Assembly (NCBI RefSeq): GCF_000189635.1
Contig: NW_002476424.1
Span: forward strand, 1 to 64,000
Direction: 5' to 3'
DNA from: Tetrahymena thermophila SB210
Lineage: Eukaryota; Ciliophora; Oligohymenophorea; Hymenostomatida; Tetrahymenidae
DNA: 64,000 nucleotides
Below are positions 1,849 through 35,974 of the stretch, piece by piece. Numbering within the stretch: position 1 is the stretch's first letter; the number at the start of each line of letters is the position of its first letter. Under the pieces are notes generated by a model. The model had not been told where the DNA came from, made no database searches, and was given only the letters and a program-made list of their open reading frames with translations. A program made the position numbers and the translations under genes.

Positions 1849-3829
1849 AGGATGATTTTGAAGAAAATATAATTAATAAGCCAAAAATTTACTTAAACAA
1901 ATAAAAAATAAAAATATAATTAATTGATGAATAAATAAATATGTTTTTATATTTATGAAAACTTGTATGGCTTTTAAATTTTTTGATTAATCTTTAAATT
2001 TATTTTATCATGCTAATTCAGACAAAATTTCTATTTAATAAATTTTAGATGTTTAATATCAAATTAAATTTTATAGTTTTTTTTAATTAATACCCACCTG
2101 CCCTTTTCAAATTTTTTCAATAAATCTTGCTATATTCTCACCTACATAAATATTAACCATTAATACATATTATAAATGTTTAATTAATGATTTTTTATAA
2201 AAAAAAAATTAAATCTAGATACTAATTACACTCCAACTTCATCTCAAATGACTGATTTTACTTCAGCAGCAAATAAATTAATACCCACATGTAGTAATTA
2301 TCATTTAGTAAATCCTACATCAAAAACAAGCTAGCTTAAATTCTAATTATTAAATTAACATAAGTTAAATTATCGATGATTTAATATATCAAATAGATTA
2401 ATAACCGATATTTATTTATAATTTTCAACATTTTAAAAATAGGAATAATTGATTTACAAAATATAATCCCATAAAAATGACTTAAAATTTAATTGTTCAC
2501 CCAAAAATCAAGAGAGACAAAAAGGCTGAAAATTAATAATAGATATTTTAAAAGTACTTCAGATAAAAGAAAATTGAATGTAAAATATAAATTATATATA
2601 AATGAGGATGGGTTGATTTTAATTATTACAAAAAGTCAAATTTTTTTATATTTTATGTAAATAAATATGAAGGAGAAAGAAAGATTTCATTTCTGATGAA
2701 AATACTTCAAAAAATAAGAAAACCTTAATTTTCATCATTTTTACATTTTAAAAATCACTTAATATAAATTTTATATGAATTATAAGCATTCACCCATCTA
2801 TACCCATCTATGGTGAGTTGAATGAAGTTTTGAAAATAGTGGAAGATATATAAGGGTTAAAAATATTTGTTTTGGTTTTAATTTCCCAAAATAAAAGAAA
2901 TTATGTGATAACATAAATAGGTGCAAATATATAAAAATAAAAAAATTATGTTTAATTAACTAACTTTCATAAATTTTAGATTTTAAAATTAAATACTTCA
3001 GGAAAAAGTGTAAAATTATATTAACTATTTTTATTAAAAAATTTATATAATTAAATAATAGAAAATTATGTAATAAAAAAAGTATGATAGAATTTAATTA
3101 TATATTATTAATAAATGTTTTAAATTTTTATTTGTTTGCAAAATGAATGACTAGAAATAAAATTAAATAATGCTTGAAAATAAATACATATTTCAAATAA
3201 TATAATTAGATTTAAAGTAGTTTTAAATAATAAAATACTCACTTTATTTATAAATTTAAATAATTTTAGTAAATTATTAACAAAATCTTTTTAATGTAAA
3301 TTTAGTAACACTTTTTTTCTAAATATAATGAAGTAGAATAGTTTTTATTCATAAATTTTAATGATTATAATTAATCATTTAAAGTCTATTAAATTTGTAA
3401 ATACTATCATTTATCAGATTTGTAGACCTAAAAAGTTATAAAATTAAACAATAAAAGAATTTTCAAATACTTTTATTAAATTATTAAATGAAATTTTCCT
3501 TTTTCACAAAAAATAAGTCTTTATAATTGAATCTGATGTTTTCTATTTGTTAATCAAAAAATTGATTAAATTTTGTCAATTTATGTATACTTTTTTGTTT
3601 TTTTCTATTCTAATAATTAAAAGCGAGTAAATATATAATCTCTACCACAAAAATGATGAGCTTATAAGATTTGTATATTTCATTACAAGATCTATTTTAT
3701 AAAAGATTATATTAAGTTTTGCATGAAACACTTTAAATTTCCCAATTTTTCTTGAAGGCAATTATAAAATAAAATAAATTTGGATATTTAATTTAATTGA
3801 TAATTAGAAAATCTAAAGAAATTAAATAA
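1849..3829. other. Intergenic AT-rich region between the two proteases
   Basis: About 2 kb without a supportable gene. It holds two copies of a short motif, aattaatacccac, at ~2087 and ~2277. An imperfect inverted repeat begins CATTCACCC and ends GGTGAGTTGAATG at about 2789-2826. I saw no third protease copy or relic. Confidence 0.5.
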
Positions 3830-5336
3830 ATGAGGAAATTCATAGCTGTGATTCTTTTAGCTCTGTCTATTGCTGGCTCTTTTGCTTAAGATTTAGACTA
3901 CAAATAGTAGTACTATGAGAGCTTACTAAATGCTACGGACTCTGAACTCTTGAAATTATTTGGGTCATACGGATTCTACCCTAACTAAAACAGTGAGAGA
4001 TTTTAGCTATTTAAAAAAAGGGTAGCTAAAATTGCTGAACATAATTTGAATCCTAATAAGAAATACACTCAAAAAATCAGTAAATTTACATTCTACACAA
4101 ACGAAGAAATATCTAAGTTGAAGGGTTCTCAAAATTGCTCTGCTACAGCAAAAGAAAATACTCGTATCCTTTAAACTTATGATCTTAGTGAAATTCCTGA
4201 TTACGTTGACTGGAGAGAGAAAGGTATCGTTTCTTCTGTTAAAGACTAAGATGCTGTTGGAGGTAAATTAATTATAAATAATATAATAATATTTTGTGAA
4301 TTAAAACTTGATATAATTTCTTTAATAGTTTAAAAATTAACTTAAAATTTATATATAATTTAGATGACTGTGGTTCCTGCTGGACATTTTCTGCAACTGG
4401 AGCTATAGAATCTCACTTAGCTTTAAAAACTGGAAAAGCACCTTTTAATCTTTCATAGTAATAATTAGTTGACTGTGCAGGAAAATTTGATAATCAAGGA
4501 TGTGATGGTGGTTTACCTTCAAGAGCATTCGAATATATTGCTTATGCAGGTGGTATTGAAAGTAAGATTTTTATATAGATTTGCTCTAAAAAAATATATT
4601 TTATTATTCTATTTCAATAAATTTTGAATAATTTTTAAATTAATAATCTTAACTAACTTAAAAATTACTTAATAAAGGTAGTCGCGATTATCCTTATAAA
4701 GGAAAAGACGGTAAATGCAAATTCAAACCTTAAAAAGTTGTAGCAAAAGTATAAAGCTCTTTCAACATTACTTTCTAAGATGAAAACGAGTTGATTTATC
4801 ATTTAGCAAAGAATGGACCAGTTTCTATTGCCTATCAAGTCACTGATGATTTCGAAAATTATGAAGGAGGAATCTATTCTAATCCTGAATGTTCTACTGA
4901 CCCTCAAGAAGTTAACCATGCTGTATTAGCTGTAGGATATAATTTGACTGGTCGCTACTACATCGTCAAGAATAGTTGGGGTAAAGATTGGGGCATGGAT
5001 GGTTATTTCTACATAGAGCTTGGCTCAAATATGTGTGGTTTAGCTGATTGTGCTAGTTATCCTATCCTTGGTGATCAAATCATTGACTCTTAAGAAGAAG
5101 CTGATATTGATGATGAAGTTGATGATGAAGCTGATAGCGATGATGAAGATGACGAAGATGATGATGAAGATAGTGAAGATGATGATGAAGATAGTGAAGA
5201 TGATGATGAAGATAGTGAAGATGATGATGAAGATAGTGAAGAAGAAGATGATGATAGTGAGTCAGATAATGAAGACAGAATAAGAATTAACAATCATCAA
5301 TAGAATTTCATCAATAAGATGAATCATTAGATATGA
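3830..5336 (+). CDS. Papain-family cysteine protease paralog with long acidic repeat tail
   Basis: Second tandem cathepsin L-like protease, 429 residues. Exons are 3830-4262, 4364-4561 and 4678-5336; the two introns interrupt the same protein positions as in the upstream gene, which shows duplication. It has a signal peptide (MRKFIAV.. to SFA), an I29 propeptide ([13 protein letters not shown]), catalytic Cys in CGSCWTF, His in [10 protein letters not shown] and Asn in NSWGKDWG. After the catalytic domain the frame runs on through TAA (Gln) at 5091 into a ~80-residue tail. That tail is almost all Asp, Glu and Ser, with four exact copies of a seven-residue unit DDDEDSE, and ends at TGA 5334. 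A standard-code reading would stop at 5091 and miss the tail. The tail could bind calcium or alter sorting; that is inference. Confidence 0.95.
5157..5240 (+). repeat. Four exact 21-bp tandem repeats encoding DDDEDSE
   Basis: The unit GAT GAT GAT GAA GAT AGT GAA occurs four times without a mismatch in the coding frame of the second protease. Perfect identity implies recent slippage or expansion. The antisense strand shows a matching Ser-rich open frame, which is only a shadow. Confidence 0.95.
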
Positions 5337-9358: not shown

Positions 9359-11746
9359 TCATTCATCTTTCATTTCTTCGCTTTAATCATCATCATCACC
9401 ATCTTCTTCTTCTCCTTCGATTTCTTCTTCTTCATCATCATCATCCTCTTCTCCATTTTCGGCTTCTATATCATCATCATTAGCTTCTTTTATATCTTTA
9501 TTTATATCATTAGCTAATCTTTCCTTATATTATTCATTAGTTTCTTAAATAACTTTAACTTCTATTTCCTTATTAACTTCTTCTATGGCTTATGCGTCTA
9601 TATTTTCTTCTCCGATTTTAGATGCTTCAATTTTATTTTTATTCATTTCCTCATCAGGTTTATAATCAGGAGGGAAGTTGAAGTAAGGAATTACACCTCT
9701 TTACCAATCCATAATAACAATTTTTGCAACTGTTATAATATCAGGTTCACCACCCTATTTTAATAAGTAAAATTTAAATATCTTAATAAATAAACCTTAA
9801 AATATTTAAAATCTAAATTTGATTGCATTTTGAAAAAAAAATTTTACTAAAATTTTAATTTGGATATTAATTTAAAATAAATAAAATAGGATAAAGTAAT
9901 ATATGTAAAGTAATTGAAGTATATATTTTAATTAATTAATTAATAAACTATAAAAATTTACCTTTTTAAGTTTACCCTTTTTGACTGCTAATTTTTCTAA
10001 GAAATCTTAGTCATCTTCCCATTCATTTACACCATAAGTTTTTTTAATGTGGATAGGATTTGTTTTTTAAAGAATAACATGGATATAGAAAGTAGGATCA
10101 TCAATTTTTTCAGCACGAATACAACCCTTAAGTACGACTTCTGTATCATCACGACCATCGTGATAGTAAACAACACCAGGACAATCGATAAGATAAATTC
10201 TTTTAGTTAAAGTGATATATTACCAAACACGAGTTTCACCAGGAATGGGAGCACTTTTACAGACCTTCTTTTGCTTCAATGAGTTAATAATTGAAGACTT
10301 ACCAACATTAGGATAACCAATAAAACCAACAGAAATGTGTTTCTTATCTTTGTGGATGTTATCATATTATCTCAACAAGTTAATAAGAGAACCTTTACCA
10401 AAAGGATTATTCAAAGAAGCATGATATGCAATAGTGGGGAATTCCTTATTCAAATATCTTAACCATTTTGTCTATTATAAAAATAACAAAAATTAGTAAA
10501 ATTTTAAAAATTAATTATTTAAGTTGCTATTTAAAAATAATATTTTGTATGTTTTTTTATTTTTTTCAATAGCTCAATTTGCTTAAAATTTAATTATTTA
10601 CTGTCAACCAAGTAGGAATCAAATCACACTTATTCATAACAAAAACTAAATGCTTATATGGGCAGTTCTTCTTAATGTGTTCTTCTACGTGCTTTGAACG
10701 AGTACCCATAGGATTTCTGGCATCCAAAATTTAAACTATAACATCAGAGGCATCAAGTACTTTATATAATTCTTCCCAAATTCTTCTAGATTGACCAGCT
10801 TCCATACGTCTATCTCTGCATTCGTTCTTAAAGTCTAGCATCTATTTAAAAGGAGGACATTAACTTATTTTGCTTAATTAAATTTATTTTATTTTACTTA
10901 GTGCTTAGTTAAATCTTAATCCTTCTTAGGATCATATTTTTGATCATTTTCCTCTACTTATTATATTAAATCTTCATATGAGTAAGATGTTGATTTAACT
11001 CTCTTTCTACTGGCCTTAGGTCCAAAAGTTTCCTATTTATAACAAAATATCATTCATTTAACACTTTTACTTGATAAAATTATATTCTAGTAATCTTTAA
11101 AAAGGGAAGTTAGTTGATAGAACAATTTCATCTCCCTTATAAGAATAAAAGCTTAATAAAAAATCTTTAAAACTTTACTTCATATTTTTCAATATCTAAG
11201 ATGTTCATTTTAGTTTCGTTATTGGCATCTGTAAGAAGAGAAATGGGGAGTTTTTTAGATTTGACTAAAACATGACGGGGATCATTAGATTTTTATTACA
11301 TTTCAACTCTAAATCTTTCTAAACTCTTTTAATCGATAGTTCTAACAGGACCGAACCACTTTCTATCAGGTTCAATTCTAGAGGGACCTGAAGGCTATTT
11401 TCTCATAGCTTCACTATTTAAAAATAATAAGAAAATGGATTTAAAAACGATAGCTAAAGCAAAGAAATCATAAAAAGAATAGAGATCATATTTAGAATAT
11501 CTATTAAAAATATTTTAACTAAATTAAAATATAAATTAATTACTAATCAGGCTTGTCCTTGTACATATTCAAACGCTTAATAGCATTTTTAGTACGGACG
11601 TGAGTCCATTTACCTTCACCCATTCCTGGTAACTTTCTATTAGGATTATCTGAGTTATTAGACTTAGATGGCTTCTTTTAGTTAGATTGCCACTTCTTTT
11701 ACATTTTTTCAGCGTGCTTGACACTCTTTGAAACTTTTTTAACCAT
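9359..11746 (-). CDS. NOG2: Nucleolar GTP-binding protein 2 (NOG2/GNL2), 60S ribosome assembly GTPase
   Basis: Circularly permuted GTPase that acts in the nucleolus and nucleus on pre-60S ribosomes. Exons in transcription order are 11746-11544, 11413-11179, 11032-10898, 10841-10602, 10471-9962 and 9754-9359; 572 residues. The N-terminal NGP1NT region is evident ([18 protein letters not shown], then [27 protein letters not shown] and [14 protein letters not shown]). The GTPase motifs come in permuted order: [10 protein letters not shown]4 NKCD, then G1 [10 protein letters not shown]2-like IPGETRVWQ and G3 DCPGVV. The C-terminus carries the family segment [14 protein letters not shown], followed by a tail of about 100 residues rich in Glu and Asp. 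The ATG at 11746 gives the conserved MVKK start. Intron phases all agree. Identification is firm. Confidence 0.96.
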
Positions 11747-17577: not shown

Positions 17578-18478
17578 TCAAAGAGGCATATTATTTATTA
17601 CTATTTCATTTTTTTTATTTTTTGTAATACCAATTTAGTAAAATAATTTAATTAGTCTTTAAGTGAAAGATGAATATTCTTATTATGAAAAGGTTTAATA
17701 TTCTTTCTATTTTGAGAGCATGTTAATTATAAAAGCTGTATTTAGAATTGACTATTTAAATTTTTAAGTAAATGTTTCATCTAAATACACATACTTGTGC
17801 TCCCAATTTAAAAAGTTTAAGTTTTACATTTTCTTCTCATACAGCTCCTTTTAAAGAAACCTCATTATATTTTAAAGAATTGGATTATTAACGGCTTCTA
17901 AAGAATGGCCTGAAAAATTTGATGTCATAAATAAAATTAACTCTTTTTTATTCAGATTTATCATTACTAAATGAATTTCATTTAAAGAAAGTAAAATTGG
18001 TATAAAAATCTTATCGAATTTATCAAAAATAGTATTATTTTGACCTGTATAAGGTTTCATGTAATGTCTCATACATTTAAAATCTAAATTGTCTTATTGT
18101 AAAGGATTTTCTTTGGTGAAATATTTGTAAAAACTTGAGGAAAGATAAAGAATTCTCATTCCTTTTGGAAATTCCTTTTAATTTAATTGATAAAGATAAA
18201 GCTAATGTCCCTGTCTCTCTTCTAAATATTTTATAAAGAAGTTTAATCCATCTTCAGTTAATATATTTCCACTCCTTAACTTTATGATGTCTCCTTCTGT
18301 AATAGTTTTTTCATACCTTTAGCAAACAATATTGCTATTTTCATTGTTTATCACTGATTCATTATAGCGCTATCCAAAAGCATAGGCATAATTTTTATCA
18401 CTAATGCTCTAATTTATTGAAGACATACCTGCTAAAGCCAAACTGCTTCCTAAATTAAAACCAATAGGACTATTCTAA

Positions 18479-18519
<41 letters not shown>

Positions 18520-21140
18520 ACTATTTCTAAGAGAATTATTATTGCTATTATTTCCGATCTCAAATTAGTTTTTAAAGTTACTATTATTATAAACACTAGA
18601 ATGATTTTATAAACTTTATTTGATTGAAGAATTGTAAAGTTAAGACTATTCATTAGTTTAATTAGACTTGGAATTTTTTGATGCCTACCAATCTAAACCT
18701 AATTTATGAAATATCATACTATGAAATCTAAAGTTGTATTCATCAATTAATTGCTTGTAAGTCTCAATGTCATAATTATAGTAATAGTGAAGCAGCTAAA
18801 CAAAAGTGTTATACCTAATGAATTTTTATAAAATATTTTTAATTTTTAAATTTCAATGAAGAACTTTAACTTTAATAAGATTCATAAATAGAAAATAAAT
18901 TTTGTTATCAAAAAACTATTAATAAATAATCTATAAAATGTGATCTTTTAATAGCTTATTTGATTGATCAAGAATAGTTATAATATTTAAAATAGCATTT
19001 GTATATTAGTAGCTATTATCATCAAATGATAATACATAATTAATTGATATTAATTACCATTCCATATATTCTCCAACTTATCTTTCTTTGTCGATTGCAT
19101 CTTAAACATTGTTTTGCTACTTAAAATCAATTCTTTTATTCATATCTACTTCAAATTATTTAAGTATTGTCTTCAACTCTCCAACTGATAGCTATACTTA
19201 TTGCTTTTCCAAAACATCTTCCTTAGTTATCTCTCCCCTTTCATATTATGCTAAAATGTCATCCTCTGAGATCTCATCTTCCTCTTCTTCGTCATAATCT
19301 TTTCGTTTCTTTTTTTTCTTGTGAGTTTTTGCTTACTTTATTTATAAATCAAACTCTTACAACTTTTTGTTTATATAATAATCTGCTAATCTATTAATAA
19401 AATATAAATTATTGTTAATAAATTCTAAATACAAAGTATTTTACGTTTCCTTTTCAATTTATTCTTATTTTTTTTTCCTTTTCATTTCTTTGGACACATC
19501 ATATTGGAGTTTCTCAACCAATAAATCAAGCTCTTCTTTAGGGATATTTAATATACCATTTTACGAATATCTTCTTTTAAGTTCATCAAACTCTTGCTAA
19601 AAGTTAAAATTATTTAAAATTTCATCTTGTTCATCTTCTTATTATTCTTAAGGTTCATAAAAATTATCTTCTTAATCTTCTTCTGCTTCTAATATGGGAG
19701 AGCTTTCGTGTTTCTTCTTTTTCTTTTTTTTCTTCTTTTTGGATTCTTTTACATTTAAATAAAATAAATGATTAAATATTCATATCAGCCAATTATATTC
19801 TTAATATAAATTTTACCTTTTTCAAACGCTTAATTAGAGGATGGAGGGGATAGAATGCCTTAAAGTGATACAATAGATGGCATGGTACTGTCAATGCTTT
19901 TTTTAGACTGAACAAGCTTAAATCCTTCAAAAATATGATTATTTTTTGGATCTTGCATCATCATTTTAAAAAGTAACCATTCAATAATCGTTGTTTGTTT
20001 TTTAATTATCTCTAAAGTCTACTAAGAAAACTCTGAAAACGGCTAAGGGTTTCCAGGAGGATCAATAAGCCACATTAGTAATCTGAAAACTAGAGTTCCA
20101 CTATATTTTGCTTCAGTCGGTGAATGAAAGCTAAAATTTTCAACATAATTAATTACAGAATTTTTCAGATCAAATTATTCAGCTATCAATGCAGAAACTA
20201 CTTCTGCATATTCATCTTTCATGTGATCCTTAAAAATAAAGAAATGACTTTAGTTCTAATTCAAATCAACAAGAAGAAGAGACCAAGTTTTTTCGTAATA
20301 TATAACAACAGCAACATTTTCGTAATTGTTAACCAATTCTTGATATTGATAATAGTTTTCAAAATTTGTTAAGTAGTCTGCATCAATTTATTTCTACGCT
20401 GTTAAACCTTAGATTATCAGAGTTATAATACACAAATTCTTTTTGGTATTGATTTAACCTTTTTGTTCATACAAGTTTTCTTAATAATTATGTGCATAAT
20501 TTAGTAAAAATGCCATCAAAGGCACTGATGATGTTTGTTCTTCAGTCAAAAGCTCTAATTGCTCATAAGTTAAGCTCAACCCCATTCTATTAATTATAAC
20601 ATCTTTTGAAACAAATACTTCTTTAGCTTTAGTTTCAAAAAATTATCTCATTTATATGTATTCCTCATCTTGATAATCCCTCATAGAAGGTATTGTTTTG
20701 TCCCTGACAATGTATTGTCCTGGTCTCTTCAAAAGCTTAAGGGAACATTCACCTTCCCTATTAAGTACTATCTCATTAACAACTACCTCTTATTTATTAT
20801 AACATCCAAATATTCTATTTATCTTCTCATATAGGTCCTCATCTAAATAAAAATCTTGAAAGTTTATTTTTGTTTTACAGCACTTACAAGGAAAACTAAA
20901 TTTATAATTCGTATTTTTGCTGTTTTTCATGCACAATTAAACTAATTCATCTTCATCATACAAACATTATAACTGCTTACAATTTATATTACGATAAGGT
21001 ACTAACATTGAGTTAGGATCACTTGATAAAACTATGCTAATATTTACTTCATTTTATTTAGGGTTCTTCTGAAAAAGCAGATTTAACATTCCGCTCTTCT
21101 ATTTTTTGAAGAGCATTTCCCTTATGTTATCTACATCCAT
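17578..21140 (-). CDS. SP-RING (PIAS/Siz type) protein fused to Ulp1-like pseudoprotease domain(s)
   Basis: Exons 21140-19817, 19745-19058 and 18814-17578 give 1,082 residues. Residues ~47-100 form an SP-RING/MIZ-like zinc module: VPYRNINCKQLQCLYDEDEL, then FPCKCCKTKI and FYLDEDLYEKI, matching the C..LQC...C..C..D.Y pattern of SUMO E3 ligases. Residues ~840-1045 look like a C48 (Ulp1/SENP) protease: DIIKLRSGNILTEDGLNFFI (the L..G.WL.D..I.F motif), then IFIPILL..NEIHLVMINL (the PI...HW.LVVIDL motif). The catalytic DCG region reads TQKFKQSILNTAFI, so the Cys is missing. Residues ~150-360 may be a second degenerate copy (TWSLLLVDL, then EAKYSGTLVFRLLMWLI). A Lys/Glu-rich linker and a poly-Asn tract lie between. 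An in-frame TGA just before ATG 21140 supports the start, although open sequence lies further upstream. Its likely role is in SUMO conjugation or binding. Confidence 0.75.
18482..18519. repeat. (TTA)n trinucleotide repeat encoding poly-Asn
   Basis: About 12-13 uninterrupted TTA units on the plus strand, read as AAT (Asn) in the minus-strand SP-RING gene. They lie in the linker between its charged region and the C-terminal Ulp1-like domain. The tract is probably length-variable between strains. Confidence 0.9.
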
Positions 21141-22020: not shown

Positions 22021-22956
22021 TCATAGTAGATTAATTTTATTCAATACTTCAAAAAATATATTGAAATTTTAATTATAAATGTTTTTATTTTATATAATAT
22101 TATAATAATCATTTTAAAATTCTTAGTTTTTTTTGTTTACATTCCTTAATGCCTTTTAATTATTGTCTTATTATGATACTAAAATTTACTATACTTTTTT
22201 AGTTATTTATTTCCATTGCTCCCTAGTGATTGATGTGTATTTTTTGTAGTTAAGTTACAAATCAGATCCTAATTCTTTTAAGTCTAATTTGTTGTTTTAA
22301 TCTTCATCTAAAATATTAAATAACCAATCTGTAAATAATTCATATTTTTCTTATTTTTTTGTTAATTTGCTGAAAAATTGATAGTTGGTTTGTTTATTAA
22401 GTTAATTTTCTTCATCTTTATTAATTAATTCTTTAGGATTTGCAAATGTCAAAACTTTTTTTAGATCTAATGACTTTTCTTTTTTTGTAGCTTCAAGGAA
22501 TTGAAAAAGTAGTTTTTTAGGGTTTTTCTTTATAAATTTAATAAAATCTTATTTATTCATTTACAATTGTTACTATTCAAACTAATTAAATTCATCTTAT
22601 TCTACTAAACCATCTCCATTTAGATCATAGATTTCAAAAAATAGTTAGGAATAGGATTTTAAATCCTTATTTATTTTTTCTTAAACATGTTTTTATTTAA
22701 GTAAGATTTATACCCTATTATAGAAATCCTAAGCATATTTTAAGTCTTCAGCTTGGTTTTCAATACTAATACTTTTAACTTCTTCAGCAACTATGTAGGT
22801 TTTTTCAGTTGAGATGAAGATGAGAATTCCTGAAACAATCAGAATTACAACTATAAAAATCATTGCAAATAAATCCAGATATCTTTGTTTTGTTATTATT
22901 CCATTCTCTTGCTACTATTAAATTTATTACTAATATTAATCCTACTATTAGTTCAT
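22021..22956 (-). CDS. EF-hand calcium-binding protein with N-terminal membrane anchor
   Basis: Single-exon gene of 311 residues. Start is ATG 22956, followed by a Gln-rich cytosolic head, MNQQQDQYQQQ. One hydrophobic segment at residues ~31-49 (FAMIFIVVILIVSGILIFI) acts as a signal anchor. The luminal or extracellular part has two canonical EF-hand loops: DLNGDGLVEQDE near residue 111 and DEDQNNKLDLKE near residue 217. In both, positions 1, 3, 5, 9 and 12 carry acidic or amide ligands. The spacing of ~100 residues suggests further degenerate EF-hands between, as in reticulocalbin-like proteins. TGA stop is at 22021-22023; the last ~40 residues are the least certain. Internally deleted relics of this gene lie at 25.4, 26.4 and 35.2 kb. 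Calcium binding is well supported; the exact role is unknown. Confidence 0.8.
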
Positions 22957-23717
22957 AGTTTAGTCTAAAAATTGCTTACTATTTTAAAATTAACACAAAA
23001 TTAAGTTATTTAGATATTTATTTGTTCGCAAAAAGTCAATTTAAAATAATTCAATAATATTTTTGATAAAGAGAAATATCAAAAATTGTAATTTTAAAAA
23101 AAATCTATTGACAGCTTTCAAAATACAACCTTACAAAATAATTAAAAAAAAAAAGCACTTATTTAAATTAATCATTTTATTTTTTAGTAAATCAAATAAA
23201 ATATTCAATATTAGCATAAACAATTAATTACCCTTTCAATAACCATAATAAAAATTAATTACTGTGAAAGATTAATACAAAGTGTTAGTTATATTATAGT
23301 CATAAACTAGAGGTCTGATATATATACTCAATGAATCTAATTTAAATTTAGAGAGTTGAGTTTTTGTAAAACATTTTTATTTATTTTTGATTTTACTCTG
23401 TTGAAATTTATAAATAATTAAGTAATTCGACTCAAAAGAATTTTTGAAGGTTTTAATAATGTTTAGTGATTTTAAAAATAGTAATCACAATATCAAAAAA
23501 GTATGAAAAAAATATTAATTTTATAAAATACTTTATATATATATTTACAGTTCAAGAGGCGAATTTTTATAAAATGTTGTTATTAATAAGTTACAGTGAT
23601 TTTTCTTTTATGATATTCTTAAATTTGGGTATAAAATTAGTTAAAATGGGTTAAAAATTTTTTTGAAAATTGAAAACCTTTTGTCAAATTTTGAACTTAA
23701 AAAATGAAGACTAAGGG
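22957..23717. other. 5' flank of the EF-hand gene, duplicated elsewhere in the window
   Basis: AT-rich region upstream of the EF-hand gene. It recurs with moderate divergence after each EF-hand relic (about 25.6-25.9, 26.7-27.2 and 35.5-35.9 kb). Shared landmarks are ataaccataataaaaatta followed by a short agaggtctg motif near 23310. No gene was seen inside. Confidence 0.6.
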
Positions 23718-25375
23718 TAGTTTAATCCATATTCAGTTAATATGTTTCCACTTCTTAGCTTTATGATATCTCCATTCGTATTATGTTTTTTACACTAAGC
23801 AAAGAATATTATTATTTTGATTGTTTATAATCTACTCATTATAGCTCTACCCAAAATCATATCATAATTTTTATAACTAATACTCTAATTTATAGAACAA
23901 ATTCCTGCTAAAGCCAAACTGCTTCCTACATTGAAACCAATCAGACTATTATAATTATTATTATTGCTTAGAGAAATTTTATTATTTTTCAGATCTCAAA
24001 TTAGTTTTAAGTTTAGTATTATACTAGAATGACTAAATAGATTTTATTTGATAGAAGAATTGTAAAGCTAAGATTTTTTAATAGTTTAATTTGATTTGGA
24101 GTCTTTTGATGCCTACTAATATAAACCTAATTTATGAAATTTGGTACTGAGATATCTAAAATTGTATTCATAAATTAATTGTTTGTAAATCTCTATGTCA
24201 TAATTATAATTATAGTGAAACAGCTAAGCAAAATTATTTCACCTAATTTTAATATATTTTTAACTTTTAATTCATTAAAGGAGAATTTTAACTGCAATAA
24301 TATTCATTTAGTAAATAAATTATGTTTTCAAAATACTAATAATAAATTAAAAAATTCAATATTTAATAACTTACTAAATTTGATTTCATTATGCTTGATC
24401 ATTAATGGTTTTAAAATCTAGAATATCATTTTGTCTATTAATAGCTTTTTAAATATATCAACAAATGATAATATAAAATTAATTGATATTAATTACCATT
24501 CCATATATTCTCCAACTCATCTTTATTTGTGAATTGCATCTTAAATATTGTTTTCTACTTAAAATCAATTCTTATATTTATTTCTACTTCAAATTATTTA
24601 AGCATTGTCTTCAGCGCTCCAACTGAAAGCTATACTTATTACTTTTCTAAAAATTTTTCCTTAGTTATCTCTCCCCTTTTATATTATGCGAAAATATCAT
24701 CCTCTTAGATCTCTTATTCCTTTTCTTCGTCATATTCATTTAGTTTATTTTTTTCTTGTGAGTTATTGCTTACTTTATTTATTAATCAAACTCCTACAAC
24801 TTTTTGTTATTTAATAATCTGCTAACCTAAAAATATATGAAGAAGATTAAGAAGATAATTCTTATGAACCTTTTGAATAATAAATAGGACAACAAGATGA
24901 AGATTTAGATAATTTTAACTTTAACAAAAGGTTAATGAATTTAAAAGATGATATTCTTAAAATGGTAATTAAATATTTGCTTAAGAAACTCCAGAATAAC
25001 CTGTTTTAATAATAAAAAAGGAAACAAAAATAAGAAGAAACTTAAAAGGAAAAGCAAATTTCTTTATATTTAGAATTTATTAAAAATAATTCGATTTCTT
25101 ATATAATAAAGCTTTTTTGTTTCTTCTTTTTGGATTCTTTTACATCTAAACTAAATGAATGGAGATATAACAGCCAATTATATTTTTAATCTAAATTTTA
25201 CCTTTTTAAAACTTTTAATTAAGAAAAAGGAGGAGATTGAATACCTTAAAGCGAAATAATAGAAGGCATTCAATATCAGTGCTATTTTTAGAATAAATAA
25301 GCTTAAATCCGTCAAAATAGTCAATATTTTTTGGATCTTGCTTCATTATTTTAAAAAGTAATCAGAAATATAATA
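23718..25375 (-). pseudogene. Relic 1 of the SP-RING/Ulp1-like gene
   Basis: Clear but degraded copy of 18241-19985. It covers the start of the C-terminal Ulp1-like domain, the 243-nt intron and the charged linker; the SP-RING part and the last ~220 codons are absent. Small indels and TGA codons break the frame. An internal block (24833-25104) is inverted. The right edge jumps from the equivalent of source position ~19979 directly to the equivalent of ~22088 in the EF-hand gene. Confidence 0.85.
24833..25104 (+). repeat. Inverted block inside SP-RING relic 1
   Basis: The plus strand here reads like the coding strand of the SP-RING linker (source 19400-19690, complement), for example gaagaagattaagaagataa followed by tcttatgaacct. 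The flanks on both sides keep the opposite orientation. The block was therefore flipped after duplication. Confidence 0.85.
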
Positions 25376-26040
25376 ATAATTTTAAAATTCTTAGATTTAT
25401 ATTTTTACATGCAATAATGCTTTTTAATTATTGCCTTATTATGTTATGATACTTAAATGTACTATAAGATTTTAGTTATTGTATCCATTGCTCCCAAGTG
25501 ATTAATGCATATTTTTGTAGCTAAGTTATAAATCATATTCTAATTCTTATAATTCTATTTAGCTATTTTAATCATTTTCTTAAGTAGAATATCAATTTAA
25601 AATAATTCAATATATTTTTGAGAAATAGTAAATAACATATAGCCAAAACAGAGTTCTATCCGAGCCAATGACTTGAATTTAGATAGCAGAATAATATTAA
25701 CATGTCTATTTTTGATTACATCTAGTTAAAATTTAATAACTTAAATAACTCCATTCAAATTAATTTTTGAAGGTTTGACTAAAGTTGATTTGAGATTATA
25801 TAAATAGTAATTACAATATGTTTAAATTATGAAAAAAATAGTAGTTTTATAAAGTATTAAAAACCACCTTTTAATTTTTATCAATCATACTTTTTAATTT
25901 ATATAAAAATATATCAAGATACAAATAGGGTATGTATTGAAGAATAAAAATAAGTACTGTAAAATGTTTATAACTCGTTATATTTATACCCATTTTTAAG
26001 AGAGTCTAATTTAAATGATTCGTTTATTTTTTGATTCTTA
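25376..26040 (-). pseudogene. Relic 1 of the EF-hand gene and its 5' flank
   Basis: Matches 22088-22310 (the C-terminal codons up to the second EF-hand), then skips to the 5' flank near 22980-23700. Most of the coding region, including the membrane anchor and first EF-hand, is deleted. It cannot encode a functional product. Confidence 0.75.
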
Positions 26041-26440
26041 TAAGGCTGGGTAGGCAAAAAAGTAGAGGGAAATAAGTATATTTTTTGTTTGATACTTTTG
26101 ATATTTTTCAATTGCTGAAATAAAAATAATCATTTTAAAAAAAGAAAAATAGAGAAATGGGATTTAGGTTTGTTTAGTAAATAAATAAAATTAGAAGTAT
26201 TAGTATCGAGTTACCTTCTAGTATTGATTAAAAAACTAGTCCAGTGATAGTAATTAATTATATAAATTTTATTTACAGTTATATGTTTGTTTTTCTAGAC
26301 AAATTTTAGAAAAATTCTTCATAATTAGCTATTTTATTTTAGAAAGCATTATTTAAATAATCAATAGATAGTCACTTATATTACGAATTTAAAAGATCAT
26401 GATAAACAAAAAATTAACAATCAATTAATTAATTTAAAAT
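26041..26440 (+). other. Orphan copy of the receptor-gene upstream region
   Basis: Strong match to the sequence just upstream of all three receptor genes (landmarks gggtaggcaaaaaagtagag, gagaaatgggatttagg, agtccagtgatagtaatta). No receptor ATG or coding sequence follows; an EF-hand relic begins instead at ~26441. This is best explained as the promoter ghost of a lost fourth receptor copy. Confidence 0.75.
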
Positions 26441-27100
26441 CTTGTCAGAAATATAATAGCAATCTTAAATTCTTAGTTTTAAATTTTTAGAGGATTAAAT
26501 GTCTTTTAATTATTGCCTTATTACGATACTAAAATTTAATATATATTTTTAATTATTCATTTCGATTACTTCTTAGTGATTGAAGCATATTTTTGAGAGC
26601 TAAGTTGTAAATCCGCTCCTAATTCTAATAATTCTATTTAGTTATTTATCTTAATCTTCATCTAAAGCAGTTTATTTTAAATATTGCTTAGTATTTTAAA
26701 ATTATCATAAAATTAAATTGCTTAAATATTGATTGAATTAGAAAAAAATCAATTTTAATAAATAAAGATTAAAGAATAAAGTAGTATATTAAAAAAAAAT
26801 TCAATAAACTGTTTTCAAAATACAACATTATAAATAATTTTAGAAAAATTGTTAGTTTAATAAATTATTTTAGTTTTTAGTAAATCAAATAAAATATCTG
26901 AATTAACTAAGTAATAAACAATTACTTTTTCTATAACCATAATAAAAATTAATTACTATGAATTACTAATACATAATATTAGCATATTCAGCACAGAGGT
27001 CTGTCCTAAATAATAAATTGAATTTACATAGTGGGATTATGTTAAGCAACTTTTAATTTTTTTTATTTACTCTAGTTGAAATTCTAAATAACTGAAATAA
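26441..27100 (-). pseudogene. Relic 2 of the EF-hand gene and its 5' flank
   Basis: Second internally deleted copy: source 22088-22312 joined to ~22965-23320. It keeps the codons for EREQW-like and DEDQ-like segments in degraded form. The same deletion end points as relics 1 and 3 show that they share one deleted ancestor. Confidence 0.75.
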
Positions 27101-27329
27101 CTCCAGTAAATGAATTTTTGAATGCTTGAATAAAGTTGATTTGAGATTACATTAATATTAATCGCAATATCCAAAAATTATGAAAAAAAATATTAGTTTT
27201 ATAAAATATTATATACATTCTTAAATTTTCATCAGCTATTATTTTTAATTTATTTAAAAATATACCAAAATAAAAATTAGCTAAGTATTGATGAACAAAA
27301 ATAAATACTGTAAAATATTAATAACTCCT

Positions 27330-27899
27330 TACATTAATACCCATTTTTGAGAGAAGTTAACTTAAGCAATTTGCTTAATTTTTTTGAATCTTAAAAGGAT
27401 GGGCATGCAAATAAATAGAGGGATATAAGTATGTTTTTTGTAGGTTATTGAATAATTTCGATATTTTTCAATCGCAAGAAATAAGTATCTAGAAAAAATA
27501 TATTATTTTTAAAAAATCAGAAATGGGATTTAGGTTTGTTCAGGGTTATAAAAATAAAATCACAAATTTAAGTATCAAGCAACCTTCTTGTATAAATTAA
27601 AAAATTAATCCAGTAGAATAGGTTGATTATTTATATTTTATTTACATTTATTTGCTTATAATTTTCCTAAGTTCTAAAGAAAACTTTAGCTATAGAAAAA
27701 TGCTTTTCATAATTAACTGATTTTATTAAGCTATTTTATTTTTAAATTTTTTGATTTTAAAGGCGGCCTTTATATAAAGTAAATCATTTATCACTGTTAT
27801 TACTAATATAAAAAATCAAATTCAGCAAAAAATAAATAAATAATCAATTAAATAATTGAAAAGTATTAATTAATTAAAAAAACAATTAATATTATAATA
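27330..27899 (+). promoter_or_regulatory. Upstream region of receptor copy A, conserved in all copies
   Basis: This block recurs before copies B (~35975-36481) and C (~42850-43406) and as an orphan at 26041. Copies keep the order: a tacccatttttgagag motif, ~60 bp spacer, a tgggtaggcaaa motif (tgggcatgcaaa here), aaatgggatttagg, then an A-rich leader ending acaattaatat before the ATG. Conservation in noncoding DNA suggests regulatory content, or simply recent duplication. Confidence 0.55.
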
Positions 27900-30800
27900 A
27901 TGTTATCAACTATCTTAGTTTATTTACTTTTCAGTTTAATACAGAGAAGTATCTCTTATAACCTTAGTCCAGAAGATGAAATAAATGTTCCTGTTTTTCA
28001 GCCAGTTCCATCTTTAACAATAGATACTTCTTTACTATGTAAGGATGCATAATCAAATTAGTTATAACCATTTACTCAATCGTCTAAAAAATATGTAGCG
28101 CTTAGCATGGGAAATTGTGGAGTATATATCTTTGATATTACTTATTTAAATAATCCTTTGATCGTTTTTAATGACACGCTTGCTTTTAATGGATACACAT
28201 AGGGAATAACTTTCAGTGATACTACAAAGTTTCTATGGATTGGACATTCGACTGGTTAATTTTTTGGTATCGATACTAAAATTTAACCTTTTGCTATCAC
28301 CGTTAAAGGAGTATCTAAAGGTAATTTATCAATAAACAAGATAATCCTATGGCCTCTGGATAATAATGTCCTCTTTTTAATGTGTTTTACCTAATTTTAA
28401 ATATTTAATTTTAGGGAGCCAAGCTAAGGGTTGATCTATCTATAATCAGTAAACGTTAATGGAATTAATACCTTCTAAATTGAATTTGTTAGAGGATATT
28501 CAATTGCTTTAGTTACTACATCAAATGTAGGAGTTTAGTTTTTTACAGTTAGCAATGGAAAAGATATAAACAGTATCTCTTTTACTTATTCCTGTTTTCT
28601 AAAGCCTTTGTTTTTTGATGTTACTAATTTCTAACTAATTGATGAGAATACGATCGCTATTATGATGGTATACAGAGGTGCTTATATCTATAATATTTAA
28701 AATTTTCTTGATAGTGGAGGCTAGACTTGTACAACTACTATATTTTAGTGGATTGATTAAACTGAAATTGAAGGATAAGGTGGTTAAATGTATCTTTCTT
28801 AAAATAGAAGATATCTCTATACATAATTTAGATCAGTGGGAGTTCAAGTATATGATGTTAAGGATAAGACATTCTAAATTGTCCAAAGAATATTTATTGA
28901 ATCTAACTGTAACGATATACGATTAAGCAGTGCAGAAGATCTCCTTTATTATACGAACTCATTAACATTGTAAATATTTGAAAGGACTACGCCAAACTTC
29001 AACAGAGACGTTCCAAATTTAATGCTGAATTAGTATTAGATTACTTCTTATAACTTCTTCAAAGAAGAGCGTAAAACTGGCAGTCTAGATTACTACTGCT
29101 ATTTCAACTAGAATAAACAAGAACTATATATGGCGAGAGCTGATTTTGGAGCTGCTGTTTTTAAATATCCTGGACAAGGAATTTTAGAGAGTTAATCATT
29201 CGTCTATAGATAATCAAGTAAACCGTTTCCAAATAGTAAAATTGCTTTTCTCTAAGATAATAGCACAGCTTATCTATCTCGTATAGCAGGTGGATTATCA
29301 ATTATCGATTTTAGTAATTCTAGTTCTCCAGTAATATTAAAAGAAAATGTTACTTTAGGTTCTCCTATTGTTGCCTTTGTTTATGTAGAATTTTTCAAAG
29401 ATTTTTAATTTGGAGTTGTTTGTAATTACGTAAATGGATATATAATTTCTATTAAAGACCCTCTAAATCCTTTTATTATCAGTGTCATAGATACATATAA
29501 GTACACAGGAGGAGATGCTAGCTTTATTAAAGCATTTATAAGTAAAGACAACAATAGAATGTTCATGATGCTCGAATCTCTTGGCATGTTCGTAGGAAAT
29601 ATTACTGACCCGTTAAATCCTTAAATAATTTCTTCATTTTTTGCTTTTGGATGTGCAGATTTTAAGTATTGATTAAATTCTTTTACATTTTTAAATACTT
29701 ACTATTTAACTAATAAAATACAAGAAGAGTATTTAGCTAAAAATATAATTAAATTGACTTTTTTGCTATTTATTATTAATCAAATTAAAAAATTTTTTAC
29801 TTAAAAATTTTTATTAATTTTTTTTAGATTAACTTAAGACGAAAAGTATGGCATTTTAGCTGCCACTTTCAAAGGTATTATAATATTGTAAAATCAACCT
29901 AATTATACACTAACACAAATATCTGAATTGAAGGTAGTGGGTTCTCTTCATCATTTCATTTTAATGTCAAATGATTAGTATATTTTAGCTACAACTTTTG
30001 AATATTCTTCAATAATTCTAATAAGCATAGTTGATATTCTTAAACCTACAATTGTGTAAATTATTGGAGATTCAGGTGCATGTGGTTACTATAGCTTGTG
30101 TCTTACAAGTGATAATACATAGGTATTTATAACAAACTAGTATTTCTTATATCTTCTTTAAGTTTAAAATTAAATAATCTTGCATACTTAAATTTATTTA
30201 CTATAAAGCTTATCTAATTCTAATCAATTTAAGCGATAAGTCTTGCCAAAAAGATAACCATTATAAGTTGGCTAAAAAATTGAGATGCATTTGGTTCCCA
30301 TTTATTAGAGTTAAGGTATAAGAGTTAACAGTGCTCAGTATTATTTTTAAAATACTCTTCAAGCTTTACCCTCGTGGATAATATTTTAGCCAAGCACTTA
30401 AATATTAAGCTTGAGCATCAGCAAAGATTCCCTTTAAAGAGATAGTGAAGGGTAGTATATTGACACTATTCAGTAAGTAGTTTTCCTAACTTACTAGTCA
30501 GTAGTAGACTCAGCTTTTGTAAATAATTACCTACAAATCAACGATGATGACTCTCTTTCTATAAAGGAAGCCTGCATAATTACTGGAATTATGGATTAAA
30601 GTGGATTCGTTTAACCTTCCTATACTCCATCTTAAGAATTAAATCTTGGAATAAATGAATAAATTTATCTAGCAAAATGGTAAGGGTCGTAATAAAGCCT
30701 CGTTAAGAAATTTATATAGTATGTTATAAACTAAAATATTATAAATTATACTATCAGCTTTTATATTACTTAATCCATTCAAGTTGATTTAAAAAATAAG

Positions 30801-33599
30801 AATTAAATTATATTTTCTATTTCAAATGACATAACAGTTGAATTACAAATTGTTGAAAGAATTGCTGGGGGATATACTCTACCAACAAACAAGATTAAAT
30901 TTGTCAATAAAAGCTATTCAAGTGTACTTATTCTAATTTCTTCTGCCTCAGATTAACTTAAACTTGAGGGTAGCCTTAATAATATAAATAGCATCTTATA
31001 AAACGGTTTGAAGTATTCAATTAGTAAAAACATTTCCTCTGAAGATATATTAATTTAAATGACAGTTTCTGATGGAGTTAACTATGATTATATCAATACC
31101 TTTTCTTATAAAGACGCGGTTTTTTTATCTCTATAAACTCCAGTTACTCTTTCATAAGACATTAATTTATAAAGTGACTTTAACTCTAAATATGATAGTG
31201 GAAAAATTTATATTTATGACAGTTTTTAGTATCAAATAAGTAGCTCAGTCTTTACATGTAATGATTCACCTATTTTACAGTACTCAGTTAAGATAAAATA
31301 AGAAAACCAATTTGTTGATATTCCTAAAGGTTATTGGATTTAATTCTCTCCTACTGATAGAGTGTTAACTGGAAATCCCCCAGTTTCTTATTTTAACAGC
31401 TTTGTTGTGATCTAAGTTAATGCTACAGATGGCTACACTTATAGTGTTGACCAATTTACCATAAATCCTTGCCTGATACCTTTCAGTTACGCTATTCAGT
31501 TAGCTATTTAAATTCTTGGACCTATATTTGGTATACTAGGATTGTATAAGTATAAGCATTTGATCTATAATATATATTTTAAATAATAATATATCTACTC
31601 TAAAGATGTTGCTTATGTAGGAGAAATATATTAAAAATAAATAACAATAACTAATGATGTTAGAGGTTTAGCAAAGAAATTATGGAAATTTTTCCAAAAA
31701 ACACTAGGAGAGAAAGAGATTTTGTGTTAATTATCTCAGTAATTAATGAAAGAAAATTAGGCTACAAGCTACCAATACTTTAATCCTAAAAAGAGAGAGG
31801 AGGATTTAAAAAATATAGAAGAAGAAGATGATATTAGTTTTGAAGAAGAGGTTATTAATAAAATGTACCCTTTTGGAGTAAATAAAGATTAAATAGGAAT
31901 AGTAGATAGAAAATCTAAAAATATTATGATGCAAAGTTCGCAAAAGTTAAATCTATCTTTAAAAAGAGGATTATCAGTAACCAAGACTATTAACTAAAAT
32001 GAAAATAGTCCAAAATTTGAATGTTCTCTACCAAATACGGAAAAATGTACTACAAATTTTCAAATTAATAACTAGATTTAATAAAATCAAAATCTTTTTA
32101 AATCAACTAAATATGAAGTAAAGTAGAAAAGAAAATTAGTGGATTAAAATGTAAACTCTAAATCTGTAGCTGACAGCATAAGATTTGATCTATTACAAAT
32201 GTCAACCTAACACATTAAAATGGATTAAAGCAACATAAATTATCTAGAGGGAAATGAAATTAATCTTTTTGAAAATGGGCAAATTAATTTTTCATCAATT
32301 TTATAATTCATTAAATAAAAATAAGAATAGCTACATGAAAAAAATAGAATTCTTAATGAAAAGTAGCTAGAATCTCTTTTAAATAGATATTCTATGTTGT
32401 CATAAGCTATTTGCTGCTATTTTGTAGACTACTTAATCGAAAAAGATAAAATTACTAAAAAAATATTTGAATGTATGCATAGTAAAGCTTGCCAGTATTA
32501 TTTGAAAATAGATTGGTATAAAGCATATGTTGACATAAAACATTCTTTTGATAACATGAATTCTTACCCTGAAATTAATATTAATGAAAAGACATATTCT
32601 GCTTCTCTTAGAGAAATTTTTAGCTCTATTTCAAGATATTATTATGATCCAGATACTAAAAATCCTAAGGAAATAAGATTTTTCTAGGCTTTACTCAAAG
32701 AAGCTATTAAATCAAGGGCCATTGGGTTCTCTAGCAAATCTACTTAATTCCTTTAAGTGACTCAAGGAGAGAGCTTACATACATTTAGCCACCTAATTTA
32801 GTCAGTTAAGACATTCGAAAAAAGCTCTTATACCTTATGTTGTTATACTTTGCGTAAGCTTCTAGACATCCATTACTTAGAAAAAGGATTAACAGATAAT
32901 GAAAAACTGCCTTCTTGGATTCACTCTATAGATTTAATTAATGGAGTAATATTAATTAGTGGAATTCCAGAGAAAAAAGATATAGGAAGCATATTAATTA
33001 AAATTATAGACTCATCTTAGTTCATTGTTAAAAGCTTTGAAATCCAAGTTCTTTAAAAATAAACAGAAAATAACGGAGAGAAAATAATTTAAACACATGG
33101 TTAAAATCATACTTAGTTAATAAATATTTAAAATAATTCAGACTAATCATAATTTAATTTGTAAAAAATATATTAAAAAAATAGATTAAAGAAAGCTTCT
33201 ACCTTTGCTAAAAATGCTAATCTTGAAATTTAATTAGCCTAATCATATTAAATACATGATATTAATCAATTAAATGGAGAAAGCTCTCCTTATTCCCCAA
33301 TAAATCACATTAAATATGCAGACTTAGATGAATAACCCTTATAATTGGATGAAGTATAAGAGATTGAATTAAAATCTATGAAAACTGCTTAACAAAATAT
33401 ACAATAAAGAAAATAATAGTTAGTTAAGTCATTAAAATAATCTGATTTTGCTGTAAATATGAGTCAACAAGCAAATAAGTAATTACCTGAAAATTCTTAT
33501 TTGATGCTAAATACAATTAGTTTATAAACTTAAGAGATAGATAATCAAAATGTTAATAATATTGAATAAATTTAAAAATAACTTTAAAATATTCCTTGA
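27900..33599 (+). CDS. LVIVD-repeat receptor-like membrane protein, copy A
   Basis: Two exons, 27900-29665 and 29828-33599, give 1,845 residues. A signal peptide (MLSTILVYLLFSLIQRSIS) leads into a large ectodomain of LVIVD-type beta-propeller repeats, seen as GVYIFDITYLNNPLIV, GLSIIDFSNSSSPVIL, GYIISIKDPLNPFIV and ISIVDILKPTIVQII. Segments resembling cadherin-like (dystroglycan-type) domains follow, then one membrane segment near residue 1145 (LAIQILGPIFGILGLY). The cytoplasmic tail of ~690 residues starts with KYKHLIYN and contains a conserved middle part (CCYFVDYLIEKDKITKKIFE, then RKLLDIHYLEKG) and a Gln/Asn-rich end. The intron interrupts a codon after ADF in all copies. The architecture is of a surface or adhesion receptor; ligand and role are unknown. 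Stop TGA is at 33597. Confidence 0.85.
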
Positions 33600-34219
33600 C
33601 TAAAAGCTAAATAAGAAACTATTGAAAAAAGGTATTACATTAATTCACATTTGAAAAAATAGCATACACTAAATGAAGACGAAAAGTAAATCATAAACAT
33701 CTAAAGTGGTTTAGCTGAAATTTGATTTTATCTTTCTAAGTTCTAAATTTAATTACCAATAGATAGATAGATAAATAGGTATCTCATCTTTAAAAAATTT
33801 TATTATTAATGAAATAATATTTATTTTAACAATAATGTAATTATATTATATTTTTAAAGAATAATATTCATTTTTTAAGTTCCTTTAATTCATTATTTTT
33901 ATTATCAAAGTAATTAATTAGAATATTTTTTTTTGTTTTTAATCAGTTTTCTAATTTTAATTCATCTATTTTTGGTATTTAGCCTAAATATTTTCTATTA
34001 TCTATATCTAGTCTGCTATAAAAATTCATATCCCTTCTCCCTTCTAAAATTTTTATATTAGAAGTGAAATACGCATTTGGTATAAAATATCTTAATTTTT
34101 TAATAAAGCTGTTAGTGGTGACAAAATATGGAGTATTGGTTAATTTTTCACATCCAATATTTTGAAAACACAATGAACCAATCAATACCAATTATTTTTA
34201 AAAAAATGTATTTTAAACC
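33600..34219. other. Spacer after receptor copy A
   Basis: Receptor 3' flank. The segment around 33960-34060 (tatttagcctaaatattttc, then catatcccttctccctt) recurs after copy B near 42570-42650. It contains a gatagatagata tract at 33763. No gene was seen. Confidence 0.55.
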
Positions 34220-35185
34220 AATACTCAAATATATTTTTAACTTTTAATATATTAAAGGAGAATTTTAACTGCAATAAGATTCACTTAGAGTAAATAAATT
34301 ATGCTATCAAAACACTAATAATAATTTAAAAAATGCAATATTTTAATAACTTATTTAGCTTAATTTCATTTTGATTAATCAAGAATGGTTTTTAAATTTA
34401 AAATAAAATTTTGTGTATTAATAGCTATTTAAATATATTTTCAAGTGATAATACCAAATTAATTGATATTAATTACCATTCCATACATTCTCCACTTATC
34501 TTCCTTTGTAAATTGCATCTTAAATATTGTTTTTCTACTTAAAATCACATATCTAATTCAAATTATTTAAGTATTGCCTTCAGCTCTCCAACTGAAAGCT
34601 ATACTTATTGCTTTTCTAAAAAATTTTTCTTAATTATTTCTCCTCTTTCATATTATGCGAAAATGTCATCCACTGAGATCTCTTCTTCCTCTTTTTCATC
34701 ATATTCGTTATTATCTTTTTTCTTATGAGTTTTTGCTTACTTTATTTATAAATCAAACTCCTGCAACTTTTTGTTATTTAATAATCTGCTAACCTATAAA
34801 ATTATGAAGAAGATTAAGAAGATAATTCTTATGAACCTTTAGAATAATAAAAAGATCAACAAGATGAATGTGTTTTAATAATTAAAAAGGAAACAAAAAT
34901 AAGAAGAAACTGAAAAGGAAAAATAAAAGTAAATTTTTTTATATTTAAGATTTATTAAAAAAAAAACTTCTAATTTGGGAGAGCTTTCTTGTTTCTTCTT
35001 TTTGATATTTAAATTTTACCTTCTTCAAACTTTTAATTAAGAAAAAGAAAGAGATAGAAAACCTAACGGTGATATAATAGATGGCATAGAACTATCAGTG
35101 CTAATTTTAGAATCAAAAAGCTTAAATTCTTCAAAATAGTCAATATTTTTTGGATCTTGGTTAATCATTTTAAAAATTAATTAGA
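34220..35185 (-). pseudogene. Relic 2 of the SP-RING/Ulp1-like gene
   Basis: Degraded copy of about 18815-19985: part of the long intron and the charged linker. It is shorter than relic 1 and lacks all Ulp1-like codons. It carries the same inverted internal block (34798-34965), so it descends from relic 1 or from their common inverted ancestor. Confidence 0.8.
34798..34965 (+). repeat. Inverted block inside SP-RING relic 2
   Basis: Reads in the same reversed orientation as 24833-25104 and starts with the same gaagattaagaagataattc. It is shorter because of an internal deletion after aacaagatgaa. Confidence 0.8.
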
Positions 35186-35900: not shown

Positions 35901-35974
35901 TAAAAATATAAAGATACTAATCAGGTGTGTATTTATAAATAAAAATAAATACTGTAAAATATTTATAACTTAAT

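Follow-up and report, generated by a model that had tools for sequence, protein, structure and literature searches.

The window analysed here, the first 64,000 nucleotides of a 129-kb contig (C124, NW_002476424.1) of the Tetrahymena thermophila SB210 genome (101 Mb, 445 contigs), carries on its minus strand a three-exon gene whose protein very probably combines an SP-RING-like finger, of the kind found in SUMO ligases, with dead Ulp1-like domains, related to the proteases that remove SUMO. Our best guess from sequence comparison is that the gene belongs to a small ciliate family that has expanded within its lineage and in which a finger of the SIZ/PIAS type is fused to a domain of the Ulp1/SENP type (domain A); in the window gene a second such domain (domain B) lies at the C-terminus.

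The gene is real. Its ATG is the second codon past an in-frame TGA, and removal of the two introns that an earlier note on this DNA had predicted (19746-19816 and 18815-19057) gives one open frame of 1,082 codons in the ciliate code, in which glutamine is written 65 times as TAA or TAG and 23 times as CAA or CAG. G+C content is 0.23-0.29 in the exons compared with 0.14-0.16 in introns and flanks. The strings cited in the earlier note were located at residues 54-59 (CKQLQC), 85-88 (CKCC), 285-293 (TWSLLLVDL), 851-864 (RSGNILTEDGLNFF), 950-958 (EIHLVMINL) and 1025-1032 (QSILNTAF). The gene and its parts are listed below from N- to C-terminus, L027 and L037 being two relatives from the same genome:

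17578..21140, minus strand: SP-RING-like/Ulp1-like fusion gene, three exons, 1,082 residues, ATG at 21140, TGA stop at 17578
19817..21140, minus strand: exon 1, residues 1-441 plus one base, an uninterrupted frame holding the finger and domain A
20832..21002, minus strand: SP-RING-like finger, residues 47-103, VPYRN..C54-x4-C59..C85-x2-C88..FYLDEDL, with Gln56 at the SP-RING His position
20763..20780, minus strand: VNEIVL after the finger, in the place of the strand leading to G-[KS]-W-[DEK]-P in SIZ2, L027 and L037
19941..20663, minus strand: domain A, putative Ulp1/SENP-like pseudoprotease, residues 160-400, with TW replacing His-Trp, YSG close to the Asp-Cys-Gly site and no Cys there
19746..19816, minus strand: intron 1, predicted, GT..AG, 14% G+C
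19058..19745, minus strand: exon 2, with poly-Lys tracts, an acidic stretch and the motif VQLSVGELKTIL
18815..19057, minus strand: intron 2, predicted, 15% G+C
18721..18759, minus strand: conserved motif YKQLIDEYNFRFH, residues 690-702, common to L027 and L037 (tblastn E 2e-5 and 0.002)
17581..18378, minus strand: domain B, putative Ulp1/SENP-like pseudoprotease, residues 817-1082, with LTED at the LNDE site, the His-Trp site unconserved and no Cys after residue 918

The genome was searched with the window protein and then with its relatives, exon by exon, and the best candidates were scored. Four paralogs were found: L021 and L027, about 20 kb apart on contig C228, L036 on C442 and L037 on C129. 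The fusion is thus not the single oddity that it had been taken for, and because the search was exon-wise and the best candidates alone were scored, a family of five genes is a lower bound. The paralogs are 17-28% identical to the window gene over the aligned parts. All five genes were assigned a domain A, on tblastn evidence for L021 and L027 and on likeness to domain B together with profile comparison for L036. Complete fingers are readable in four of them (the window gene, L027, L036 and L037), and in L021 the second Cys pair of the finger alone is visible. Domain B was found in the window gene and L021 and in no other family member.

Because Pfam gave nothing useful, the domains were tested by other routes. 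Profile-profile scores (hhalign) were judged against column-permuted versions of the same alignments, and further controls were provided by single-sequence tests on 111 segments from open frames of the same genome. Of these segments, 24 come from SP-RING loci and top the finger lists; the remaining 87 are unrelated. L021 was excluded from the finger alignment, as its first half could not be modelled, L008 from the SP-RING set as a partial match, and L004 from the Ulp1 set for its long insertion. Against SP-RINGs of the PDB, the two-member finger profile scored 36.4 (control maximum 20.95, n=200) and the four-member profile 39.6 (control maximum 18.5, n=200); against SP-RINGs of the same genome the scores were 36.5 and, with four members, 48.6 (control maxima 20.5 and 22.9, n=200). 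Taken singly, all four fingers beat the best of the 87 unrelated segments with both SP-RING sets (20.5-35.9 vs 17.5 and 26.0-35.0 vs 18.0), two of them with a low probability (about 9%) against the PDB set. When the four-member profile was searched against the PDB, SIZ2 (E 0.13), NSE2 (E 0.16) and SIZ1 (E 0.45) were the top three, none significant alone, and five of the eight chains among the matches listed were SUMO E3 ligases. A relationship of the finger to SP-RINGs is thus supported by profile comparison. The finger alignment was also compared with viral contigs, where 12 pattern matches included no relative.

The zinc ligands of SP-RINGs follow the pattern C-x-H...C-x2-C. In the window finger, C54, C59, C85 and C88 sit at the Cys of C-x-H, at a further Cys and at C-x2-C, so that three ligand Cys are kept together with a fourth Cys, and the His is absent. 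All four readable fingers keep the four Cys, which makes a C4 zinc site possible. The family shares with SIZ1/SIZ2 and PIAS (SP-RING, PF02891) the P-x-[RK] loop, C-x(4)-C, C-x2-C and the helix that follows, and L027 and L037 possess, like SIZ2, a strand ending in G-[KS]-W-x-P; the Trp of this G-[KS]-W-[DEK]-P motif is missing from the window gene. It differs from SIZ1/SIZ2 and PIAS in having Q, T, K and K in place of the His of C-x-H, in lying under Pfam detection and in being fused to Ulp1-like domains; unlike in SIZ/PIAS, no SAP or PINIT domain was found by Pfam in the window protein. As the SP-RING His is absent from the four readable fingers, a working SUMO ligase is doubtful. The SP-RING module announced in the earlier note is supported, by profiles and paralogs, as an SP-RING-related finger and unsupported as a working E3.

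Function remains compatible with an atypical site, because Ema2, a SUMO E3 of Tetrahymena whose SP-RING zinc site is atypical through a different ligand change (first Cys to His), binds Ubc9 in vitro according to the passages cited (PMC10830130). In the window finger, by comparison with Ema2 as described there, the first Cys is kept and the His replaced; the same passages mention no Ulp1-like domain in Ema2. Miz1 of Tetrahymena, a MIZ/SP-RING partner of Chd3 and candidate ciliate E3, is of the same class, and its description, by which alone it was compared, mentions no Ulp1-like domain in the part cited (PMC6562869). Two other SP-RING loci of the genome were noted. L010 (G000:C60:874164-877247) has an SP-RING whose first Cys is replaced by His, as described for Ema2 in the cited part of PMC10830130, and from its sequence is possibly Ema2 itself; L009 (G000:C282:265642-268773) is one open frame with, by eye, two tandem SP-RING-like fingers.

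The Ulp1-like scaffold that the earlier note had placed near the C-terminus was borne out by the matches of domain B to SENP2 and Ulp1. Alone, domain B matched SENP2 with E 3.8e-5, Ulp1 with E 0.011 and SENP1 with E of about 0.02, and when aligned with its paralog the values became 4.4e-6, 1.1e-5 and 1.4e-4, respectively. The B profile scored 52.3 against the SENP/Ulp1 set (control maximum 22.2, n=120), and single B sequences reached 41.5 (window) and 34.8 (L021), the maximum of the 111 same-genome segments being 22.0. With the same SENP/Ulp1 set, the three-member A profile scored 31.2 (control maximum 19.8, n=120) and the five-member profile 46.3 (control maximum 19.4, n=150); both domains were clear in this later test because SENP2 and SENP1 had been added to the Ulp1 set. 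Two single A domains, those of the window gene (25.6) and L036 (22.7), exceeded the best of the 111 control segments (22.0). In the PDB, the five-member A profile found yeast Ulp1 first (E 0.001) and then SENP2 (E 0.12). The eight chains at E<=10 comprised two SUMO proteases, one FolC and, from bacteria, five chains that represent two enzymes, Dub1 and a 'membrane thiol protease', which we take to be Ulp1-like. PDB matches to Ulp1 and to SIZ/NSE2 emerged only with five A domains and four fingers. Window B also resembles domain A of L036 (27% identity over 55 residues, tblastn E 0.007; blastp E 3.4e-4 among the five A domains), and by this likeness A and B are judged to be related to each other. 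By sequence and profile, a relationship to the solved Ulp1/SENP domains of Peptidase_C48 was thus found for B and, with fuller profiles, for A; the 'one or two' Ulp1-like domains first suggested are two in the window gene, both without the catalytic triad. They share with Ulp1, SENP1 and SENP2 (PF02902) the core that extends from the 'iT..Di..L' helix across the central strands, and differ from them in lacking His-Asp-Cys, in their fusion to the finger and in lying under Pfam detection.

The window protein has no Cys at residues 238-834 nor after 918, and for this reason neither of its domains can be a cysteine protease; the loss of the catalytic Cys from the C-terminal domain had been read correctly. 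In window A, a T stands at the His, no aligned Asp is present and YSG lies near the Asp-Cys-Gly (DCG) site. Across the family, the Trp of A is invariant, whereas the His preceding it is replaced by T (window), R (L021), V (L027), R (L036) and Q (L037). The aligned column in the strand after this Trp holds Asp in L021, L036 and L037, Ile in the window gene and Asn in L027, and the Asp-Cys-Gly site is kept in L036 and L037, reads DCDG in L021 and YSG in the window gene, and has no Cys in L027. Near its end, domain B of L021 carries a Cys (VSCSQ), but Asp-Cys-Gly is absent from it, as from window B. Because the His is missing in all five A domains, their common ancestor had probably already lost it, Asp and Cys decaying later in some lines, and we infer that the catalysis of A was lost before or early in the radiation of the family.

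Several results weigh against reading these parts as SP-RING- and Ulp1-related. The comparisons with zf-MIZ (PF02891) and C48 (PF02902) that the earlier note had proposed came out empty for the window protein even at E<=10, and no relevant family appeared when the window protein and the paralog pieces were scanned with Pfam and NCBIfam; weak matches to LcrV, PyrI_C, SAM_1, iSTAND and others lay under their cut-offs and were judged to be chance. Genome searches with PF02891 and PF02902 returned six places (E<=1) and four places (E<=0.001), respectively, among the matches listed, and none belonged to the fusion family. The SP-RING His, present in 10/10 SP-RINGs compared, is found in 0/4 readable family fingers. 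Searched alone against the PDB, the finger found no E3, and domain A, alone or with one paralog, found no SUMO protease. Against the first Ulp1 set, made of three same-genome sequences, A scored 18.7 with a control maximum of 19.9 (n=150) and B was marginal (20.4 vs a control maximum of 20.3), while the first comparison of A with the B profile gave 21.7 and was exceeded by one control at 22.0 (n=150). Three of the five single A domains (20.0, 13.4 and 13.3) remain below the control maximum of 22.0, and the assignment of A in L037 rests on position and on the DCG and Trp motifs. Finally, AlphaFold2 run without an alignment gave low-confidence models, with a mean pLDDT (predicted local distance difference test) of 39.4 for residues 1-404 of exon 1 and 35.3 for residues 817-1077 of domain B.

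What such a protein might do is suggested by engineered dead Ulp1. According to the cited part of PMC3216068, the C580S mutant acts in yeast as a trap for SUMO and SUMO conjugates; Asp451, which forms a salt bridge with SUMO, is required for this and for the SUMO-dependent targeting of the mutant. We placed D451 in WLND by inference from that paper and the Ulp1 sequence. The equivalent residue is Glu in domain B of both the window gene and L021. Two observations speak against SUMO binding: the equivalent residue of window A is Val, and window B lacks both the Trp preceding this position and the His-Trp pair. Because of them, the SUMO-tail groove of the dead domains may not be working.

On the architecture combined with this analogy we propose, tentatively and as something short of probable when both are taken jointly, that the protein serves as a non-enzymatic scaffold of the SUMO pathway. 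Its dead protease domains would hold SUMO or SUMO conjugates without cleaving them. Because the D451-equivalent is Glu in B and Val in window A, B would be the main SUMO holder and A a structural or second weak site. The finger might offer a docking surface for Ubc9, the E2, or for a SUMO substrate, and the Lys-rich linker would carry the protein to the nucleus, a location suggested by the poly-Lys stretches of exon 2. The self-contained SUMO reader/writer is retained as a hypothesis. In a more far-reaching form, which we consider unlikely, the proposal describes a class of ciliate SUMO regulators in which a C4 rather than C3H finger and one or two dead proteases act together in one chain, the dead domains holding donor or conjugated SUMO and either positioning it for transfer or shielding it from removal, so that the attachment machinery would have recruited the fold of the removal machinery as a reader.

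The SP-RING ligase and Ulp1 protease families are old, and dead Ulp1 has been engineered deliberately; among the titles and abstract openings listed by searches of the open-licence literature, we found no description of a natural fusion of an SP-RING-like finger with a dead Ulp1-like domain. The engineered traps have an Ulp1 fold without catalysis, as the window domains probably do, and hold SUMO conjugates, as stated in the cited parts of PMC3216068 and PMC9784311. They are man-made mutants, whereas the inactivation seen here is natural, deep and in tandem, and SUMO binding by the window domains is assumed by analogy. If the pseudoproteases bind SUMO, they would be a natural counterpart of the engineered traps, and opposing SUMO modules would have merged into one reader. 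In any case a family of at least five genes is invisible to Pfam. Since programmed DNA elimination in Tetrahymena involves SUMOylation (Ema2, cited part of PMC10830130), a new SUMO-related protein group would be directly testable there by tagging and knock-out.

The scaffold proposal has to be weighed against other explanations. The family may have left the SUMO pathway, its modules being relics that serve ordinary protein interaction with other partners. The SP-RING His lost in 4/4 readable fingers, the catalytic His lost in 5/5 A domains, the Val at the SUMO salt-bridge site of window A and the low identity of the paralogs (17-28%) all fit such a departure, which we nevertheless regard as rather unlikely: two SUMO-pathway modules are retained jointly across deep paralogs, the Trp of A is invariant and both genes with a domain B have Glu at its salt-bridge site.

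The protein could also be an inhibitor or decoy that competes with active SENPs for conjugates, with SP-RING ligases for Ubc9, or with both, thereby shielding conjugates or limiting attachment. Its catalytic features are gone and the fold relationship retained, and there would be enzymes to compete with, as the same genome has active-looking Ulp1 genes with His-Asp-Cys (L001, L002 and L003) and ordinary SP-RING genes (L005-L007); sequence, however, cannot tell a decoy from a scaffold, and we give this possibility little weight.

A division into two genes, one with the finger and A ending at a TGA in intron 1 and a separate one with the coil and B, is improbable. It draws on the fact that a retained intron 1 puts an in-frame TGA after exon 1. 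However, the parts are spanned by continuous frames: window exon 1 runs without a stop through the finger and the whole of A; in L036 a single 519-codon frame includes the end of A (DCG), the linker and, by eye, a GELKNIL motif; both sides of the intron-2 junction apparently lie in one 483-codon frame of L037 (seen by tblastn for exon 3 and by eye for exon 2); and linker and B stand together in window exon 3 and in a 513-codon frame of L021. The order and strand of the parts agree in the paralogs, as far as found. Likeness to VQLSVGELKTIL (GELK motif) was seen by eye in L027, L036 and L037, and a YKQLIDEY motif is recognisable in L027 and L037. Judged from these frames, finger, A and B are most likely in one chain, made from one transcript.

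Protease activity of some members towards a different ubiquitin-like protein, through Cys-Asp with a replaced His, is very improbable: domain A of L036 and L037 does retain Asp-Cys-Gly and, by eye, has an Asp in the strand that follows the Trp, but the His is absent in 5/5 and both sites of the window gene lack a Cys. An accidental likeness in a gene of low complexity and high AT content, for which the lack of anything relevant in Pfam and NCBIfam and the failure of the first profile test could be invoked, is largely refuted and hardly credible, as all three domains exceed permuted-column controls with fuller profiles and the best PDB matches of each are SUMO-pathway proteins.

The window also holds two broken partial copies of the gene:

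23717..25361, minus strand: broken partial copy 1, parts of exons 1-3, with the middle inverted (24839-25090 on the plus strand)
34227..35183, minus strand: broken partial copy 2, the end of exon 1 and part of exon 2, with the middle piece inverted (34806-34956 on the plus strand)

Both are upstream of the window gene, beside copies of the neighbouring EF-hand gene, and these broken copies and EF-hand copies are decaying block duplications. The 1,082-codon frame is intact and these copies are broken, a contrast that points to maintenance of the gene. Differences common to both copies comprise 6 synonymous and 7 non-synonymous changes. Private differences number 2 synonymous and 14 non-synonymous in copy 1 and 6 and 9 in copy 2, the random expectation being 18% synonymous; between exon 3 and copy 1, 30 of 86 differences are synonymous. 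These counts lean towards constraint on the gene, with small numbers and with mutation bias outside the model. The EF-hand neighbour (22021-22980) has a hydrophobic stretch and EF hands just under the Pfam cut-off, and fragments of it lie upstream near 25369-25618, 26425-27215 and 35187-35911.

Other loci of the window were noted in passing. Three tandem copies of a long gene region (27253-33950, 36002-42659 and 42863-49475) are mostly 84-92% identical in DNA, and the first has a 1,308-codon frame with a weak immunoglobulin-like (He_PIG) match under the cut-off. Two papain-type cysteine protease genes lie in tandem at 574-1848 (Peptidase_C1, E 1e-60) and about 3566-5336, the second assigned by DNA and frame likeness and ending in an acidic repeat. 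A piece at 55049-55501 matches the C-terminal part of Hsp33 (Pfam E 5e-12), a redox chaperone best known from bacteria, and at 9359-10573 a GTPase gene (MMR_HSR1, E 9.5e-17) encodes a long acidic tail.

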